From NCBI GenBank assembly GCA_011391695.1, contig JAABQB010000027.1:1-38048 (forward strand): a DNA stretch of 38,048 bases, in the 5' to 3' direction. How positions within the stretch are numbered: the first letter of the stretch is position 1; each line of letters starts with the position of its first letter. The translations under genes were made by a program, and so were the position numbers. The stretch comes from Desulfobacteraceae bacterium (GTDB lineage Bacteria > Desulfobacterota > Desulfobacteria > Desulfobacterales > RPRI01). Below are positions 4,550 through 30,366 of this stretch, piece by piece. Under the pieces are notes generated by a model. That model did not search any database. It saw only the letters and a program-made list of their open reading frames with translations, and was not told where the DNA came from.

Positions 4550-6697
4550 ATGAACATTGCGTCACCTTCGGTGAAGAAACTCCTGCAGGGCGCAGCGGCA
4601 GGTCTGATCGGTTTTGCGCTGGCGCTATCACTCTGGCTCCCGGGGTGGCTCGATACCTGGGAGGGGAAAACTTGGGACTGGAGGGTCAACCTGCTGGCCA
4701 GGCCGGGGGCGGCCACCGACTCGATCCGTCTAATCCTCCTCGATCAGAACAGCCTCGACTGGGGAAAGAGGGAGAATGCGCTCGGCTGGCCTTGGCCCCG
4801 TGAGATCTACACTGTCCTTCTCGATTTCTGCCGCCGTCAGGGGGCAAAAGCAGTCATCTTCGACGTACTGTTTACGGAACCCTCCACATATGGCGTCGCT
4901 GACGATCAAACCCTGGGCGAGGCGATCAAAAACGGCCCACCTTTTGTCGGTGCGGTCTTTCTGAGCGATGATGCAGGTGCGGAACGGAAGTGGCCAGAGT
5001 TCATCCCGGTGCCGAAGTTCAAGATTGACGATCCCATACCGTGGCTCACGGACACAATCGCCGGAAAAGGCAGCGCCCTTGGGGGGACATTCCCCGTTCC
5101 GGACGTTGCCCGAAACAGCACGGTTTTAGCCGATACCCACCTCAACCCTGATCCAGATAACGTCTATCGCCGGATGAGGCTTTTCAGCGCCTTCGACGGA
5201 AAAATAGTGCCGTCACCGGCGTTGGGCGCCTACCTGGCAGCCGCACCGGATGTGCAGCTGAATGTCGCCGCCAGCCTTCTCGTCGTGGGGACTCGCCGTA
5301 TTCCGGTCGATGAGAGGGGAAACACGATTCTAAACTTCCGTGGGTCCTCCGGCACGCACAAGACTTATAGCGCTGCTGCCGTAATCCAGAGCGAGCTTCG
5401 TCTCCAAAACGGAGAGGAGCCGATCATCGATGGGACGAATCTCTTCAGGGACCGTTATGTCTTTTTCGGATTTTCCGCGCCCGGGCTCTACGATCTCCGC
5501 CCGACACCCACCTCCGGCATCTACCCTGGCGTAGAGGTTCACGCGACGGCGCTGGACAATCTCCTGTCTGGCGACTTCCTCCGGCCGGCGCCGAAAGTAT
5601 TCCTCCTGGCCCTGACCTTCTTTTTGACCCTCTTTGCCGGAGTCGCGACTGCGCGCGCAACCGGGATTGCAAAGAGCCTTCTCATCAACGGGTTATTCAT
5701 TCTACTTCCTATATTCATAGCCGGGGTTGCATACCGTACCGGGTTTTGGCTGCCGCTTGTCGTCCAGGAGATAGCGGTCGCCGTCACGCTATTTTCCGCC
5801 GGTGTGATCTATTACACGACCGAGGGGAGACAGAAACTCTTCATCAAAAATGCCTTCAAACAGTACCTTAGCCCTGCGATCATCGAAGAGCTCATCCAGC
5901 ATCCGGAGCGATTAAAACTCGGCGGTGAGCGGCGCCTGCTCTCCATCTTTTTTTCGGACTTAGAGGGATTTACGGGAATCTCCGAGGGGTTGGAACCGGA
6001 GGCGTTGACGAATCTCCTTAACGAATATCTGTCTGCGATGACCGACATCATCCATGAGGAGGGAGGGACTGTCGACAAGTATGAAGGGGATGCGATCATC
6101 GCTTTCTGGAATGCCCCCCTGCCTCAAGCCGATCATGCCGAAAGGTGCGTCAGGGCGGCCCTTCACTGCCAGGCAAAGCTGGCCCTGATGCGGCCGGCGC
6201 TCCGCGAGCGCGTCGGGAAGGACCTTCTCATGCGGATTGGAATAAACAGCGGCCTGGCGGTCGTCGGCAACATGGGTTCACATACCCGGTTCGATTACAC
6301 GATGCTCGGCGATGCCGTGAATCTCGCCGCCCGCCTGGAGGGGATCAATAAGCAGTTCGGAACTTATACCGTAATATCGCAGGCCACATTGGAGCTCATG
6401 AAAGAGAGCTTACCCGTACGCGAACTCGCACGAGTCTCAGTGGTGGGTCGCAAGGAGGCAGTGACAATCTTTGAGCCGATGGTTTCCGGGGAGTTTGCAG
6501 CAAGGGCGGACGATCTCCGGATCTTTGCCGGCGGACTGGAAGCATTCTCCTTGGGCCGGTTTGCCGAGGCAGAGGCGATCTTCGCCACCCTGGCCGACCG
6601 TGATCCCGCCGCCCGCGCCTACATCGCGAAGTGCCGTTCGCTTATCGAAAAGCCGCCCGGAGAATGGAACGGCGTCTGGGTGGTAACGACCAAGTGA
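4550..6697 (+). CDS. CHASE2-domain class III adenylate cyclase
   Basis: A 715-aa membrane signalling enzyme. One N-terminal membrane segment is followed by a CHASE2 sensor (about 40-330: SIRLILLDQNSLDW, WPWPREIYTVLLDFCRRQGAKAVIFDVLF), which faces outside. Then come three closely spaced hydrophobic helices (about 345-420) and a class III cyclase domain (about 460-630). Metal-binding Asp residues occur in FFSDLEGFTGI and KYEGDAIIAFW. Lys in DKYEGD and Asp in MLGDAVN specify ATP, and the Asn and Arg of NLAARLEG are the transition-state pair. All catalytic residues are present, so cAMP production is expected. The last ~80 residues look like a short TPR-like tail. It is translationally linked to the SH3 and M48 genes, suggesting that an envelope signal controls cAMP. 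Sequence is G+C-rich (36 of 60 bases at 4561-4620). Confidence 0.93.
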   Translation: MNIASPSVKKLLQGAAAGLIGFALALSLWLPGWLDTWEGKTWDWRVNLLARPGAATDSIRLILLDQNSLDWGKRENALGWPWPREIYTVLLDFCRRQGAKAVIFDVLFTEPSTYGVADDQTLGEAIKNGPPFVGAVFLSDDAGAERKWPEFIPVPKFKIDDPIPWLTDTIAGKGSALGGTFPVPDVARNSTVLADTHLNPDPDNVYRRMRLFSAFDGKIVPSPALGAYLAAAPDVQLNVAASLLVVGTRRIPVDERGNTILNFRGSSGTHKTYSAAAVIQSELRLQNGEEPIIDGTNLFRDRYVFFGFSAPGLYDLRPTPTSGIYPGVEVHATALDNLLSGDFLRPAPKVFLLALTFFLTLFAGVATARATGIAKSLLINGLFILLPIFIAGVAYRTGFWLPLVVQEIAVAVTLFSAGVIYYTTEGRQKLFIKNAFKQYLSPAIIEELIQHPERLKLGGERRLLSIFFSDLEGFTGISEGLEPEALTNLLNEYLSAMTDIIHEEGGTVDKYEGDAIIAFWNAPLPQADHAERCVRAALHCQAKLALMRPALRERVGKDLLMRIGINSGLAVVGNMGSHTRFDYTMLGDAVNLAARLEGINKQFGTYTVISQATLELMKESLPVRELARVSVVGRKEAVTIFEPMVSGEFAARADDLRIFAGGLEAFSLGRFAEAEAIFATLADRDPAARAYIAKCRSLIEKPPGEWNGVWVVTTK

Positions 6698-6734: not shown

Positions 6735-6786
6735 TCTGTTTTTAATAAAGTTATTGACTTGTCACGAGCATATTGATAGCAAATTT

Positions 6787-6903
6787 GATGGACTAGTTAG
6801 AAGTCCATCATCAGGCCGATGGCGATTAAGCCACGGCCTGGTGTGAGGGTGGAACCGCTTGAATTTACTTCAAGCGGCGGGAGAGGGGAAGCCCTTTCCC
6901 GCC
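6787..6903 (+). ncRNA. Chain of four strong hairpins, possible structured RNA or transposon-end remnant
   Basis: Four consecutive hairpins occupy 117 nt. H1: GATGGACT/AGTCCATC, 8 bp, loop AGTTAGA (6787-6809). H2: AGGCCG/CGGCCT with inner TGGC/GCCA and one bulge (6813-6839). H3: CCGCTTGAA/TTCAAGCGG, 9 bp (6855-6877). H4: CGGGAGAGGG/CCCTTTCCCG with a GAAG loop and one G-U pair (6878-6901), extensible by two bp at the expense of H3. Almost every base is paired, which is not expected of random intergenic DNA. A TTGACT lies about 30 nt upstream. The pattern, with its last GGGGAAGCCC hairpin, resembles from memory the 3' RNA (omegaRNA-like) end of IS200/IS605 tnpB elements, but no tnpB fits in the 89 nt after the cyclase stop. 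Unproven. Confidence 0.5.
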
Positions 6904-6932
6904 AAGTAAAAAATCGTTTTCTGACTTTGTAT

Positions 6933-6956
6933 GAATTGACCTGACTTCCGAAGGGA
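6933..6956 (+). repeat. Inner 24-bp direct repeat, left copy
   Basis: GAATTGACCTGACTTCC followed by GAAGGGA matches 8051-8074 with a single difference (A/G). Both copies can be read in frame as IDL(T/A)SEG, suggesting fragments of one coding sequence. In this copy the frame stops after about 20 codons. Confidence 0.75.
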
Positions 6957-6982
6957 CTCAATATCTTTATGAGATTTTTCCC

Positions 6983-7024
6983 AAAAAAAAGCCAGCATAG
7001 AAATCTCCCAATCTCCACGCTGGC
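6983..7024 (-). terminator. Rho-independent terminator downstream of tRNA-Val
   Basis: On the minus strand GCCAGCGTGG (7015-7024) pairs with CTATGCTGGC (6991-7000) over 10 bp including two G-U pairs. It is followed directly by eight T residues (6983-6990). It lies 85 nt past the tRNA-Val 3' end and points the right way to end that transcript. Confidence 0.75.
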
Positions 7025-7071
7025 CATCTTTTCATTAAAATTGGCATATCCGCCACCACAAATAAAGAAGA

Positions 7072-7093
7072 GGTTAACCATAAAGAGTTAACC
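7072..7093. promoter_or_regulatory. Inverted repeat GGTTAAC-8-GTTAACC
   Basis: Two perfect 7-bp arms (7072-7078 and 7087-7093) separated by 8 nt, between the terminator and tRNA-Val. The 7-8-7 geometry is the same as the promoter-overlapping repeat at 32324-32345. It could be a protein-binding site or a recombination site; no promoter is visible at it. Confidence 0.35.
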
Positions 7094-7108
7094 CCTTGAT
7101 ATTTCCGG

Positions 7109-7180
7109 TAGGCGCGATTGGATTTGAACCAACAACTTCTACCGTGTCAGGGTAGCGCTCTCCCCCTGAGCTACGCGCAG
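7109..7180 (-). tRNA. tRNA-Val (anticodon GAC), atypical acceptor end
   Basis: The minus strand gives D-arm GCTC/GAGC, anticodon stem CTACC/GGTAG with loop CTGACAC (anticodon GAC), and T-arm GTTGG-TTCAAAT-CCAAT. The acceptor arms CTGCGCG and CGCGCCT pair at only five of seven positions: pairs 1-72 and 2-71 are mismatched. The bases after the discriminator are CCG, whereas the other two tRNAs here encode CCA. TATAAT lies immediately against the 5' end, leaving no room for a normal promoter and leader. A terminator is present downstream. It may be a functional but edited gene, or a tRNA whose 5' edge was replaced by a recombination event. Confidence 0.75.
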
Positions 7181-7354: not shown

Positions 7355-7561
7355 ATGGCGCAGTTTACAGCAGAAACCCTGATAAAAAATGGCGGGATTA
7401 CATTGCGCAAAATTCCTTTAAAGGAAAATACCAGGGTAAAAGTTGTTTTAATCCCCAAAGCCGACCTGTCAAGCATGTCTTTTGCGACTGCTCGTAAATT
7501 GACAAAAAAAATTAAAGGGAATCTGTCCGAAGATATTCTTGCGGAAAGAGATAAGAGATGA
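7355..7561 (+). CDS. Antitoxin of a VapBC-like toxin-antitoxin pair
   Basis: A 68-aa protein with AAAGGAG 7 nt before the ATG. The N-terminal half is beta-rich (LRKIPLKENTRVKVVLIPKADL), and the C-terminal half is charged and helical (ATARKLTKKIKGNLSEDILAERDKR). This resembles small beta-barrel antitoxins of the AF2212/DUF104 kind more than classic AbrB VapB. It overlaps the PIN-domain toxin gene by 4 bp (ATGA), the standard toxin-antitoxin arrangement. The antitoxin should bind and block the nuclease and autoregulate the promoter. I see no clear -35/-10 pair in the A+T-rich upstream 170 bp, which also carries the 5' side of tRNA-Val. The assignment rests mainly on context and size. Confidence 0.8.
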   Translation: MAQFTAETLIKNGGITLRKIPLKENTRVKVVLIPKADLSSMSFATARKLTKKIKGNLSEDILAERDKR

Positions 7562-8007
7562 ATCTCTATCTTGATTCAAATGCGCTGATCAAACTTTATC
7601 ATGAGGAAGCCGGCACGGGTGAGCTTGTCAAACTGCTTGATGATAATGCAGATAATCTTATTTTAACAATTGCGGATATTACAAGAATTGAATTTTACTC
7701 GGCTTTTCTTAAAAGGGTTCGCAAAAAGGAAATAAAGATTGAAACGGTAAAAGAAGTCCTATCGGCTTTTGAAAACGATCTCTACATGTTCAATTTTATC
7801 GAAGTTGATAATATTGTTAAAACAATGGCTGTCGATTTGCTTAAGACAACAGCGAATAAACTGGGTCTGACGACTCTTGATTCTATTCAATTAGCAGCGG
7901 CTATAACTGCGCATCAAATTTTTCCGATCGACTGTTTTGTGACTTCCGACCGTATATTGCTGAACATTGCAAAAAAATACTTCCGGACATTCAATCCTGA
8001 GTCATAA
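7558..8007 (+). CDS. PIN-domain ribonuclease toxin (VapC-like)
   Basis: A 149-aa PIN-domain protein. The acidic metal-binding residues are visible: D6 (LYLDSNALIKLY), E45 (ADITRIEFYSAF), D108 (GLTTLDSIQLAAA) and D131 (FVTSDRILL). VapC toxins are Mg-dependent endoribonucleases that cut specific tRNAs or rRNA and arrest growth when the antitoxin is degraded. The length is in the usual range of about 130-150 aa. The start codon overlaps the antitoxin stop. The target cannot be told from sequence. The tRNA-Val 180 bp upstream is an interesting neighbour but not evidence of targeting. It ends just before the decayed reading frame and the right copy of the 24-bp repeat. Confidence 0.92.
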   Translation: MNLYLDSNALIKLYHEEAGTGELVKLLDDNADNLILTIADITRIEFYSAFLKRVRKKEIKIETVKEVLSAFENDLYMFNFIEVDNIVKTMAVDLLKTTANKLGLTTLDSIQLAAAITAHQIFPIDCFVTSDRILLNIAKKYFRTFNPES

Positions 8008-14317: not shown

Positions 14318-14369
14318 ATTTTACCCATCTTTGATAACTATGACGACTTCTCACGAGTCCATCAGTTTT

Positions 14370-14503
14370 GATGGTCCCGTAAAAAGTCAGGATCTCACAC
14401 CAAGCCACAAAGATCACAAAGTTAACATGTTAATATTAAATGAAATATTTCTTCGTGTTCTTAGTGCCTTTGTGAGAAAATATAGTTTTCACGGGTCCAT
14501 CAG
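14370..14503. repeat. 135-bp dispersed repeat with terminal inverted repeats, copy A
   Basis: The ends GATGGTCCCGTAAAA and TTTTCACGGGTCCATC are near-perfect inverted repeats. The interior (CACAAAGATCACAAAGTTAAC ... TTCTTCGTGTTCTTAGTGCC) matches copies B (19841-19978) and C (30234-30366), which lie in the opposite orientation. The right end runs into the last codons of the ATPase gene. Just left of it is another half terminus, CCATCAGTTTTGATGG. No coding capacity; MITE-like. Confidence 0.9.
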
Positions 14504-20015: not shown

Positions 20016-21455
20016 ATGTCGCTTCGTATTTATAATACCCTTGAAAGAAAAAAAGTTCCGTTCGTGCCTGTAAAACCCGGGAAAGTCAGCATGTATGTTT
20101 GCGGGCCCACGGTATATGATTCCTGCCATATCGGGCATGCAAGATCCGTCATTGTTTTCGATGTTATTTTGAAATACCTGAAAGCAGCCGGGTTTGATGT
20201 GACTTATGTCAGAAATTTTACAGATGTTGACGACAAGATCATAAACCGCGCCGGTCAGCTTGGAGTTGAAACATCTGAAGTTGCGGAAAAATACATAAAG
20301 GAATTCTATGAAGATATGGATGCCTTAAACATTGAAAGGGCAACCGTAGAGCCGCGGGCAACCGAGCACATAGACAGAATTGTAGCTCTTATTGAAAAGC
20401 TGCTGGAAAAAGGGATGGCATACAGAATAAACGGAGATATATTTTATTCTGTCGAAAAATTTGAAAATTACGGAAAACTTTCCGGGCGAAGACTTGAAGA
20501 GATGGAAGCCGGCTCAAGAGTTGATATAGATGAAAGAAAAAAGAATCCCTTTGATTTTGCCCTTTGGAAATCGTTAAAACCAGGCGAACCTGCCTGGGAC
20601 AGTCCCTGGGGAAAGGGGAGACCCGGCTGGCATATTGAGTGCTCGGCCATGAGCAGCGCGTACCTGGGGGAAACATTTGATATTCATGGAGGAGGCAGGG
20701 ATCTTGTCTTTCCACATCATGAAAACGAGATTGCCCAATCCGAGGGAGCAACAGGAAAACCTTTTGCAAAATACTGGATTCACAACGGATTTGTAAACAT
20801 AAATCATGAGAAGATGTCAAAGTCTCTCGGTAATTTTCTTCTGATTAAGGATATACTTAAATCATACCATCCGGATTCTGTCCGGCTCTTTTTATTGTCC
20901 AATCATTACAGGAGCCCTATCGATTATACAAACAAGGCGATGGATGAATCCGATGCGGGTCTTGATAAAATTTACTCCCTGATAAAACGGGTGGAGGAAA
21001 ATCCGGGCTTTGAATCAAAAGAGGTTCAAAATGAACCGGGAGATTACTGGAAACAGTTTTGCGAGGCTATGGACGATGATTTTAATACAGCGAAGGGCGT
21101 TGGAATTATTTTCGACTCTGTCCGGCATGTGAATCGTCTGATGGACGAAAACAGCGGAATCATTCCGGGAGATGTTAAAATCATTATTGGTAAAATCCAT
21201 GCCGACATCCTCAAAACAGGGAAAGTCTTGGGTATATTATCAGAGTCTGTCGGAACATATTTTGAAAGAAAGAAAACAAATTTTCTAGAAAATAAAGCGA
21301 TTGATCCTTCCATGATTGACTCTCTGGTGAAGGAGCGTTTCGAAGCAAGAAAAGCAAAGGACTGGAAGAAGGCTGATGAGATAAGAAAGAAACTTTCGGA
21401 TATGGGTGTTTTGATCGAGGATAGAGCTGACGGAACCATCTGGAAGTTCAACTGA
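20016..21455 (+). CDS. cysS: Cysteinyl-tRNA synthetase
   Basis: Charges tRNA-Cys. The true start is the ATG at 20016 (MSLRIYNTLERKKVPF), with GGAGG 3-4 nt upstream; the longer open frame is only translation of the upstream repeat. It gives 479 aa, near the usual ~460-480. Class I motifs are HIGH (YDSCHIGHARS) and KMSKS (NHEKMSKSLGNF). The zinc ligands are visible: Cys of MYVCGPTVYD, Cys of WHIECSAMS, and His/Glu of FPHHENEIAQSE. The C-terminal helical region ends with EARKAKDWKKADEIRKKL. It probably shares a transcript with ispF, though the repeat lies between. Nothing unusual in the protein. Confidence 0.97.
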   Translation: MSLRIYNTLERKKVPFVPVKPGKVSMYVCGPTVYDSCHIGHARSVIVFDVILKYLKAAGFDVTYVRNFTDVDDKIINRAGQLGVETSEVAEKYIKEFYEDMDALNIERATVEPRATEHIDRIVALIEKLLEKGMAYRINGDIFYSVEKFENYGKLSGRRLEEMEAGSRVDIDERKKNPFDFALWKSLKPGEPAWDSPWGKGRPGWHIECSAMSSAYLGETFDIHGGGRDLVFPHHENEIAQSEGATGKPFAKYWIHNGFVNINHEKMSKSLGNFLLIKDILKSYHPDSVRLFLLSNHYRSPIDYTNKAMDESDAGLDKIYSLIKRVEENPGFESKEVQNEPGDYWKQFCEAMDDDFNTAKGVGIIFDSVRHVNRLMDENSGIIPGDVKIIIGKIHADILKTGKVLGILSESVGTYFERKKTNFLENKAIDPSMIDSLVKERFEARKAKDWKKADEIRKKLSDMGVLIEDRADGTIWKFN

Positions 21456-21537
21456 CGGCTTTGTGAAAAGTCCCTCTGCTGTGTTGCATAATATGAGCCA
21501 ATTTAAAAACAGCGTCCAAAATAAATAGTCATAATCC

Positions 21538-21600
21538 GTCATTCCCGCGAAAGCGGGAATCCAAAAATAACTCTGGATTCCGGGTCAAGCCCGGAATGAC
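21538..21600. repeat. GTCATTCCCG-type double hairpin
   Basis: GTCATTCCCGCGAAAGCGGG begins the unit, continuing AATCCA ... TGGATTCCGGGTC and closing AAGCCCGGAATGAC. The outer arms GTCATTCC/GGAATGAC and inner CCCGC/GCGGG and CCGGG/CCCGG pair. A widespread intergenic repeat type; half copies occur at 34462-34489 and 36394-36413. It lies between cysS and uvrB. Confidence 0.85.
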
Positions 21601-21662
21601 AAGCAATGTTGACGTGTACAACTAATTATGTCGTTATGCATAGATTTAAACGAATTATTTTC

Positions 21663-21689: not shown

Positions 21690-23681
21690 ATGCCCAACTT
21701 CAAGATAGTATCCGATTATTCCCCTAAAGGTGATCAGCCAAAGGCAATAGAAGTTTTATCATCCGGAATAACATCAGGGAAAAAGCACCAGGTGCTTCTT
21801 GGCGTTACAGGGTCGGGGAAAACATTTACCATGGCCAATGTAATTGCAAATGTTGATAAACCGACTCTTGTTCTTGCCCCTAATAAAACACTGGCAGCAC
21901 AATTATACAGCGAATTCAGATCCCTCTTCCCGGAAAGCGCCGTGGAATATTTCGTCAGCTATTATGATTACTACCAGCCGGAAGCATATATCCCTTCAAG
22001 CGATACTTATATCCAGAAAGACTCGTCAATTAATGACATGATAGACAAGTTAAGACATTCCGCGACAAGATCTGTTCTTACACGCAGGGATGTTATTGTG
22101 GTTGCAAGCGTTTCATGTATTTTCGGACTTGGCGCTCCAGAAGATTATCTCGCTATGAGGGTCGATATTAACAAAAACATGGAGCTTGACCGGGACAAAT
22201 TTCTTCACGATCTTGTTTCCATGCATTATGAACGAAATGACATTGATTTTTTCAGGGGAAGCTTCAGGGTCAGGGGCGACAGAGTGGAGATTTTTCCGGC
22301 TTATGAAGAAGATAAAGCCGTCCGCGTAAATTTTTTCGGAGATGAGGTTGAGAGCATATCGGAAATAGATCCACTTAAGGGATCGGTTCTTAATAAATTA
22401 AACGGCACAACCATTTTCCCTGCAAGTCATTATGTTACACAGAAAATGACTCTCCAGAGGGCCATTGAGACTATTTTGCCGGAGCTGAAAGAGAGAATAG
22501 CGTATTTCAGAAATGAGAATAAATACATTGAAGCACAAAGGATAGAAGAGAGAACTCATTTCGACATCGAGATGATGCAGGAGATTGGGTACTGCAACGG
22601 GATAGAAAACTATTCACGCCATTTGACGGGAAGGGCGCCCGGTGAGCCGCCACCGACCCTTCTCGATTATTTTCCATCCGATTTCCTGTTGTTTATCGAT
22701 GAAAGCCATATTTCCGTTCCGCAGCTTCACGGAATGTATAAAGGCGACAGATCGAGAAAAGAGACACTCATAAATTTCGGGTTCAGGCTTCCGTCGGCTC
22801 TTGACAACAGGCCTCTTAAATTTGAGGAATTTGAATCAAGAGTTTCTCAAGCGATATATGTATCTGCCACTCCGGCTGATTTTGAGCTTGAAAAGGGAAA
22901 GGACTCTCTTGTTCAGCTTATCGTCAGACCGACCGGACTTGTTGATCCTCCTATTGCAATAAGGAGGGCGGAAAATCAGGTCGACGATCTTTATGAGGAG
23001 ATAGTCTCCTGTACAAAGAAAAACGAGAGGGTCCTTGTCACTACTCTTACAAAACGAATGGCAGAGGATCTGACCGAATATTATTCGGATCTGGGAATAA
23101 AAGTCAGTTATCTTCACTCGGACATAGGAACCCTGGAAAGGATGGAAATCATCCATGATCTCAGGACGGGCAAGTTCGATGTTCTTGTGGGAATAAATCT
23201 TTTGAGAGAAGGTCTTGATATCCCGGAAGTTTCTCTTGTTGCGGTGCTTGACGCGGATAAAGAAGGCTTCCTTCGTTCGGCAAGAGCGCTCATACAGACG
23301 TGCGGACGGGCTGCGAGAAATATTAACGGTAAGATAATAATGTATTGCGATACCGTTACGAATTCAATGCGGAATGCTATAGACGAGACCAATAGGAGAA
23401 GAAATATCCAGGAATCGTTTAATAAAAAATATAATATCACACCGGCAGGTATCGAGAAAGCGATTACACATGTATTTGAGCAGGTTTCGGAATCACCCAC
23501 GGTATCGGATAAGGTATCTGAAACCATATCCAGATATCGTTCTCTCGATAATCTCGATGAGATTATTTCAAATCTTGAAAAAGAGATGGAAAGTGCGGCC
23601 CGTGAACTTGAATTTGAAAAAGCGGCCGAGCTGAGAGACAGGATCAGGGATATCAAGCAAAAGATAATTTTTGAATACTGA
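21690..23681 (+). CDS. uvrB: Excinuclease ABC subunit B
   Basis: UvrB verifies DNA damage delivered by UvrA and recruits UvrC for incision. The 663-aa protein has Walker [16 protein letters not shown], the DNA-clamping beta-hairpin ([18 protein letters not shown]), the DEAD-like [18 protein letters not shown], helicase motifs V-VI ([31 protein letters not shown]) and a C-terminal UVR domain ([19 protein letters not shown]) that contacts UvrC. Length is normal. No Shine-Dalgarno is visible: an octamer repeat and TATAATATT precede the ATG directly, so initiation may be weak or leaderless. No LexA-like box was seen. uvrC follows after 48 bp, an uncommon direct uvrB-uvrC pairing in one transcription unit. 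Confidence 0.97.
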
Positions 23682-30176: not shown

Positions 30177-30233
30177 AAATACTTAGGATATTCAAACATC
30201 AAAACGCTTTAAAAAATGAAAAACTGCCGGAAT

Positions 30234-30366
30234 TGATGATCTCGTAAAAACTATATTTTCTCGCAAAGGCGCTAAGAACACGAAGAAATAATTCATTTAA
30301 TATTAATATGTTAACTTTGTGATCTTTGTGGCTTGGTGTGAGATCCTGACTTTTTATGAAAGCATC
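30234..30366. repeat. 135-bp dispersed repeat, copy C
   Basis: Left end TGATGATCTCGTAAAA, right end TTTTTATGAAAGCATCA. The interior matches copy B nearly base for base (TCGCAAAGGCGCTAAGAACA, then GATCTTTGTGGCTTGG), with scattered substitutions. It lies 35 bp before purC. Confidence 0.9.

Follow-up and report, generated by a model that had tools for sequence, protein, structure and literature searches.

A dispersed MITE-type element with a row of local hairpins in a Desulfobacteraceae genome

The gene-free stretch and its fold

What kind of sequence folds into a dense row of hairpins where no gene can be seen? This question is raised by positions 6787-6903 of the window, that is, the whole stretch of 38,048 nt that was analyzed (Desulfobacteraceae bacterium, assembly GCA_011391695.1, contig JAABQB010000027.1, positions 1-38,048, forward strand). 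The original prediction described four near-perfect hairpins in a gene-less chain, and our analysis bears out this description. Folded as RNA, 6787-6903 reaches -71 kcal/mol, compared with -37.8 +/- 3.9 for its shuffles (z -8.4; 0 of 200 shuffles as good), and no gene is evident, the sole overlapping ORF (6797-7081, minus strand, 94 aa) being mechanical. The row of hairpins continues past 6903 to about 6941 and includes a weaker fifth hairpin at 6906-6932, which gives a full unit of about 155 bp. The whole element is also stable against shuffles as single-stranded DNA (z -7.7), as is its minus strand folded as RNA (z -7.1). The parts of the window copy are the following:

6781-6786, no strand: likely left target-site sequence AAATTT, with the A-A-n-n-T-T consensus of 33 exact copies
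6787-6941, plus strand: whole element, a decayed MITE copy, its ends set by the target duplications of other copies
6787-6805, plus strand: left inverted repeat, three mismatches against GAYGGMYTCGTAAAAAGTC
6787-6809, plus strand: hairpin 1 (H1), 8 bp, its 5' arm within the inverted repeat
6812-6840, plus strand: hairpin 2 (H2), 7 bp, a bulge and 4 bp
6841-6854, plus strand: unpaired linker GTGTGAGGGTGGAA, ending in TGGAA, the least variable stretch across genomes
6855-6877, plus strand: hairpin 3 (H3), 7-9 bp (9 bp in the consensus), with the strongest covariation
6878-6901, plus strand: hairpin 4 (H4), 10 bp, extendable to 6876-6903 (10-12 bp), one G-U pair
6906-6932, plus strand: hairpin 5 (H5), weak in the window copy, 10 bp in the consensus
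6923-6941, minus strand: right inverted repeat, decayed, GACTTTGTATGAATTGACC against GACTTTTTACGAAGGTATC (plus-strand letters)

A new small RNA was among the possibilities raised at the outset. The Rfam search returned only tRNAs in the window at the gathering score, the matches to the element itself being weak (E >= 0.69), and no family was assigned to its short and long forms at relaxed E-values. Upstream, a cyclase-like gene (named by eye) ends at 6697, 89 bp before the element, and downstream a tRNA-Val is encoded at 7107-7180 on the minus strand. Beside this tRNA, at about 7356-8007, a small gene and an overlapping 149-aa PIN-like protein (7558-8007) have, by eye, the look of a toxin-antitoxin pair.

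Copies, ends and target duplications

The genome that holds the window contains 20 matches to the element, and the full copies are 88-94% identical. All 10 genomes of the genus contain the element, which is found, according to a covariance model, in 21 of the 389 genomes of the order, being rarer in the other families of the order than in the genus; outside the order, the model found it in three genomes of one genus (G469, G397 and G434). The named records bearing the core are MAGs labelled Desulfobacterales, Desulfobacteraceae, Desulfonema limicola or Deltaproteobacteria. Many bacteria of the sulfate-reducing type thus harbor the element. A search of phages, plasmids and viral contigs gave no match. 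By simple ORF calls, 74 of 75 copies are intergenic; they sit among unrelated genes across the genome in all orientations, with a weak bias relative to the neighboring genes (++ 27, -- 13, +- 14, -+ 18). Two genomes show recent bursts: in G469 (the same genome as NC_groundwater_1539, judging by identical copies) the interiors are identical in 7 of the 10 copies compared, and the isolate Dive96_bin10.193 carries more than 20 near-identical copies, with many contigs ending inside the element. Tandem copies separated by a few spacer bases that resemble the target duplication were observed at two places (L324, 1-260, and L299, 5280-5593).

This distribution bears on an explanation suggested by the neighborhood, namely that the hairpins are an ordinary intrinsic terminator or a tRNA-processing structure of the adjacent genes. 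The element lies close behind the cyclase-like gene and faces tRNA-Val, and on the minus strand H1 shares sequence with a terminator-like site. However, better terminator-like sites are found at 7068-7097 and 6990-7025, and the same sequence occurs between unrelated genes genome-wide. Nor is its position conserved: in relatives within the genus, matches to the tRNA-Val region are mostly on contigs that carry no copy, and the window position is not shared. We regard this explanation as highly improbable.

The ends of the element, GAYGGACTCGTAAAAAGTC and GACTTTTTACGAAGGTATC, are imperfect inverted repeats. The 6-bp sequences flanking the copies were identical in 33 of 89 cases, when 1.0 would be expected, and showed an A/T-rich AAnnTT consensus; at least five of the six positions were alike in 45 copies, as against 7.1 expected. 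In addition, one empty orthologous site was identified: the copy in G469 is flanked by AATATT, and in G397, which has no copy there, the flanking sequence is continuous. Dispersed copies, inverted ends, 6-bp duplications and an empty site, taken together, lead to the conclusion that 6787-6941 is one decayed copy of a MITE-type non-autonomous DNA transposon. The best explanation as a whole, to which we assign a probability of roughly 0.85, is a MITE that would be moved by a transposase encoded elsewhere and that would carry its interior as cargo. Two observations count against this account. No transposase with the element ends was found, since the inverted-repeat pairs 0.6-5 kb apart, among the ends listed, held ordinary genes only; and in the window copy the right flank, TGACTT, no longer matches the left AAATTT, so that its duplication is not intact.

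The original prediction also saw in the locus a selected-looking structure and, as one option, a MITE of the IS200/IS605 type. The structure and the MITE stand, the latter through the 6-bp duplications and the inverted ends; the type does not. MITEs of the IS200/IS605 type leave no target duplication on insertion and have no inverted repeats at their ends, and both features of the present copies rule that type out.

A further proposal was that the hairpins are the orphan omegaRNA end of a tnpB transposon, the sequence from 6904 being the guide. Like IS200/IS605 ends and TnpB omegaRNAs, the element packs hairpins densely into a gene-free stretch, and Y1 transposases do occur in the genus. Against this, the sequence after H4 is conserved in full copies instead of variable, so that H5 and the right inverted repeat occupy the place where a guide would be expected. 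Furthermore, the TnpB domain search (PF07282) was negative in all 10 genomes of the genus, with a control search positive in 6 of 14 genomes, and no full copy was found beside the 12 Y1 transposase loci examined. The conserved sequence after the hairpins and the absence of TnpB rule out the omegaRNA, and with the duplications and inverted ends also present, we give an origin as an orphan omegaRNA or IS200/IS605-type end practically no credence.

Same-ended elements and known repeats

The usual view takes bacterial MITEs to be insertion-sequence ends that have decayed. In the 21 genomes analyzed, the end pattern with at most 2 mismatches occurs 6-353 times per genome (dozens to hundreds of times in most), compared with at most 2 occurrences of the reversed control. 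MITEs that share the ends and the 6-bp duplications and carry unrelated interiors, with no H2-H4, are common; because they do without these hairpins, movement does not in general require H2-H4. As far as we found, this set of same-ended MITEs is an undescribed and large source of structure in Desulfobacterales-type genomes. Within the window itself, three such MITEs or fragments (14369-14502, about 30233-30366, and from 19842) have a different interior related to CTCACACCAAGCCACAAAGATCACAAAG, and the one at 14369-14502 has a 6-bp duplication, AGTTTT, at its flanks. A palindrome-rich repeat, GTCATTCCCGCGAAAGCGGGAATCC, occupies about 21520-21610, next to a matching MITE end (21454), the genes on either side ending at 21455 and starting at 21690.

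The same-ended MITEs also bear on the idea that the hairpins are transposition signals, bound by the transposase or by a host factor as extruded or single-stranded DNA. It is in agreement with this idea that H1 and H5, which share sequence with the inverted repeats, remain paired across genomes, and that the single-stranded DNA form is stable. For H2-H4, however, such a requirement is not general, and we consider this reading unlikely. The interior (H2-H4 and the linker) would be cargo that is not needed for the recognition of the ends.

Bacterial MITEs are gene-less intergenic elements of about 100-235 bp with inverted ends, target duplications and stable stems predicted in their transcripts (PMC2229807, PMC10969869). 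The present element is like ERIC/IRU, Correia/NEMIS, RUP, QMITE and Chunjie (of Geobacter uraniireducens) in its size, its lack of a gene, its inverted ends and duplications, and its intergenic position. It differs from most described MITEs, which form one long stem from their paired ends, in having five local hairpins in a row, a near-invariant unpaired linker and double changes between genomes. TA-type MITE families have other ends and another duplication size. The CIR repeats of Caulobacter and Brucella, conserved across genera, also consist of separate hairpin arms and a linker (PMC2229807); their arms number two, and a terminal inverted repeat is not listed for them, whereas the present element combines five hairpins with inverted ends and 6-bp duplications. 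REP and REPIN sequences, which are mobilized by RAYT/Y1 transposases such as occur in the genus, are likewise short, palindromic and dispersed, but the present element has target duplications and inverted ends, and at the 12 Y1 loci examined no linkage of a full copy to a Y1 gene was seen. In the open papers searched, no description of the end sequence or of a MITE of the Desulfobacterales-type group was found. As far as we found, therefore, the MITE family is apparently undescribed; its kind, the bacterial MITE, is known, and its interior is unusual.

Paired changes in the interior

The original prediction called for a test of covariation across homologues, and covariation is present. Automatic consensus folding gave a poor result for 54 copies owing to a few misaligned decayed rows, and the counts use the named structure instead. 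In an alignment of 22 rows, with each genome represented by about one copy, 96.8% of the cells are paired and 16 pairs show double change; 49 cells are double-changed, compared with 12.8 in shuffled alignments and at most 12 with the partner slid. In the 54 copies, 65 cells are altered on both sides (17.2 shuffled), and the interior alone accounts for 33 double-changed cells (9.7 shuffled). Stems kept paired by matching changes are unusual for such an element; they could reflect selection on a single-stranded form, most likely RNA, or template switching. The fact that the stems stay paired across genera in a dispensable interior makes this element a natural test of RNA function against a mutation process in mobile palindromes, and both readings are testable because single genomes hold many copies that are nearly identical.

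The conserved linker fits selection. Differences per site amount to 0.035 in the TGGAA before H3, 0.11-0.16 in the stems and 0.20-0.47 in the loops. Between genomes, wobbles comprise 19 G-U and 6 A-C (the fixed G-U pair excluded, and the cells not being independent), and this lean points to plus-strand single-stranded pairing in spreading lineages. In the copies dominated by the genus the wobbles are even, 60 G-U against 61 A-C, with no strand preference (again, cells that are not independent), which points to neutral decay after insertion. The even wobbles in the genus and the weak orientation bias of the copies count against an RNA role. It is conceivable, at odds that we would put clearly below even, that the interior functions as a structured RNA or single-stranded DNA module riding in the MITE, selected in more than one order, with TGGAACC fixed while stems change and hairpins are swapped. 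On the best explanation, a single-stranded form of the interior, as read-through RNA or single-stranded DNA, would matter to the lineages in which the element still multiplies. The most likely account of the role, much less certain than the identification of the MITE, is that the interior, when transcribed from neighboring genes, would fold as a self-contained row of hairpins, by which the insertion is rendered harmless or the transcript protected.

The other reading keeps the same MITE and derives the paired changes from mutation: in an imperfect palindrome, template switching from arm to arm would copy one arm onto the other. Replication template switching reportedly both generates and mends hairpins (PMC8794818). 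Paired changes without intermediates within one genome fit this process. Few intermediates are seen (at H3 columns 71-89, AU in 16 rows, GC in 6 and none between), and near-identical copies in one genome differ by a paired H2 change from GAGGGC/GCCCC to GAAGGC/GCCTC (L348, L364). Furthermore, the H4 tip alternates within one genome between GAATC and GATTC, which are reverse complements, and other short palindromes have been inserted or swapped in. Template switching leaves unexplained that TGGAA, although unpaired, varies least of all, as well as the lean towards G-U between genomes. We hold it to be a possible source of the paired changes, short of a probable one.

The hairpin tips have variation of their own. 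In G469 the interiors are almost identical between copies, yet the 7-base H1 loop differs at 0.24 per site (L245-L263); in Dive96_bin10.193 the variation is in the tips of H4 and H5, with hardly any in the H1 loop. Gene conversion of the interior or repair of the ends during transposition could be candidate causes.

A second dispersed element, about 115 bp long, has the form TTGAACCGAAACAGCGAGCG...CCCCGC..GCGGGGTTAGCGAGCGAATC...GGTCGAAGATTCCCC..GGGGAGCTTCAA (L089-L092 and L160-L187; for example, L176 near 1501). It shows no obvious target duplication, in some cases lies inside the H3 loop, and is possibly REP or IS200-like. The long form of the MITE, whose H3 loop is larger by about 110 bases (L089-L092), was considered as the ancestral one and rejected, as these bases are the nested second element. 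In several copies (L135, L125, L104, L105, L298 and L301), the hairpin tips contain, or are replaced by, a small palindrome, TCCGCCTNAGGCGGA or TCCCGCC..GGCGGGA, which occurs elsewhere too.
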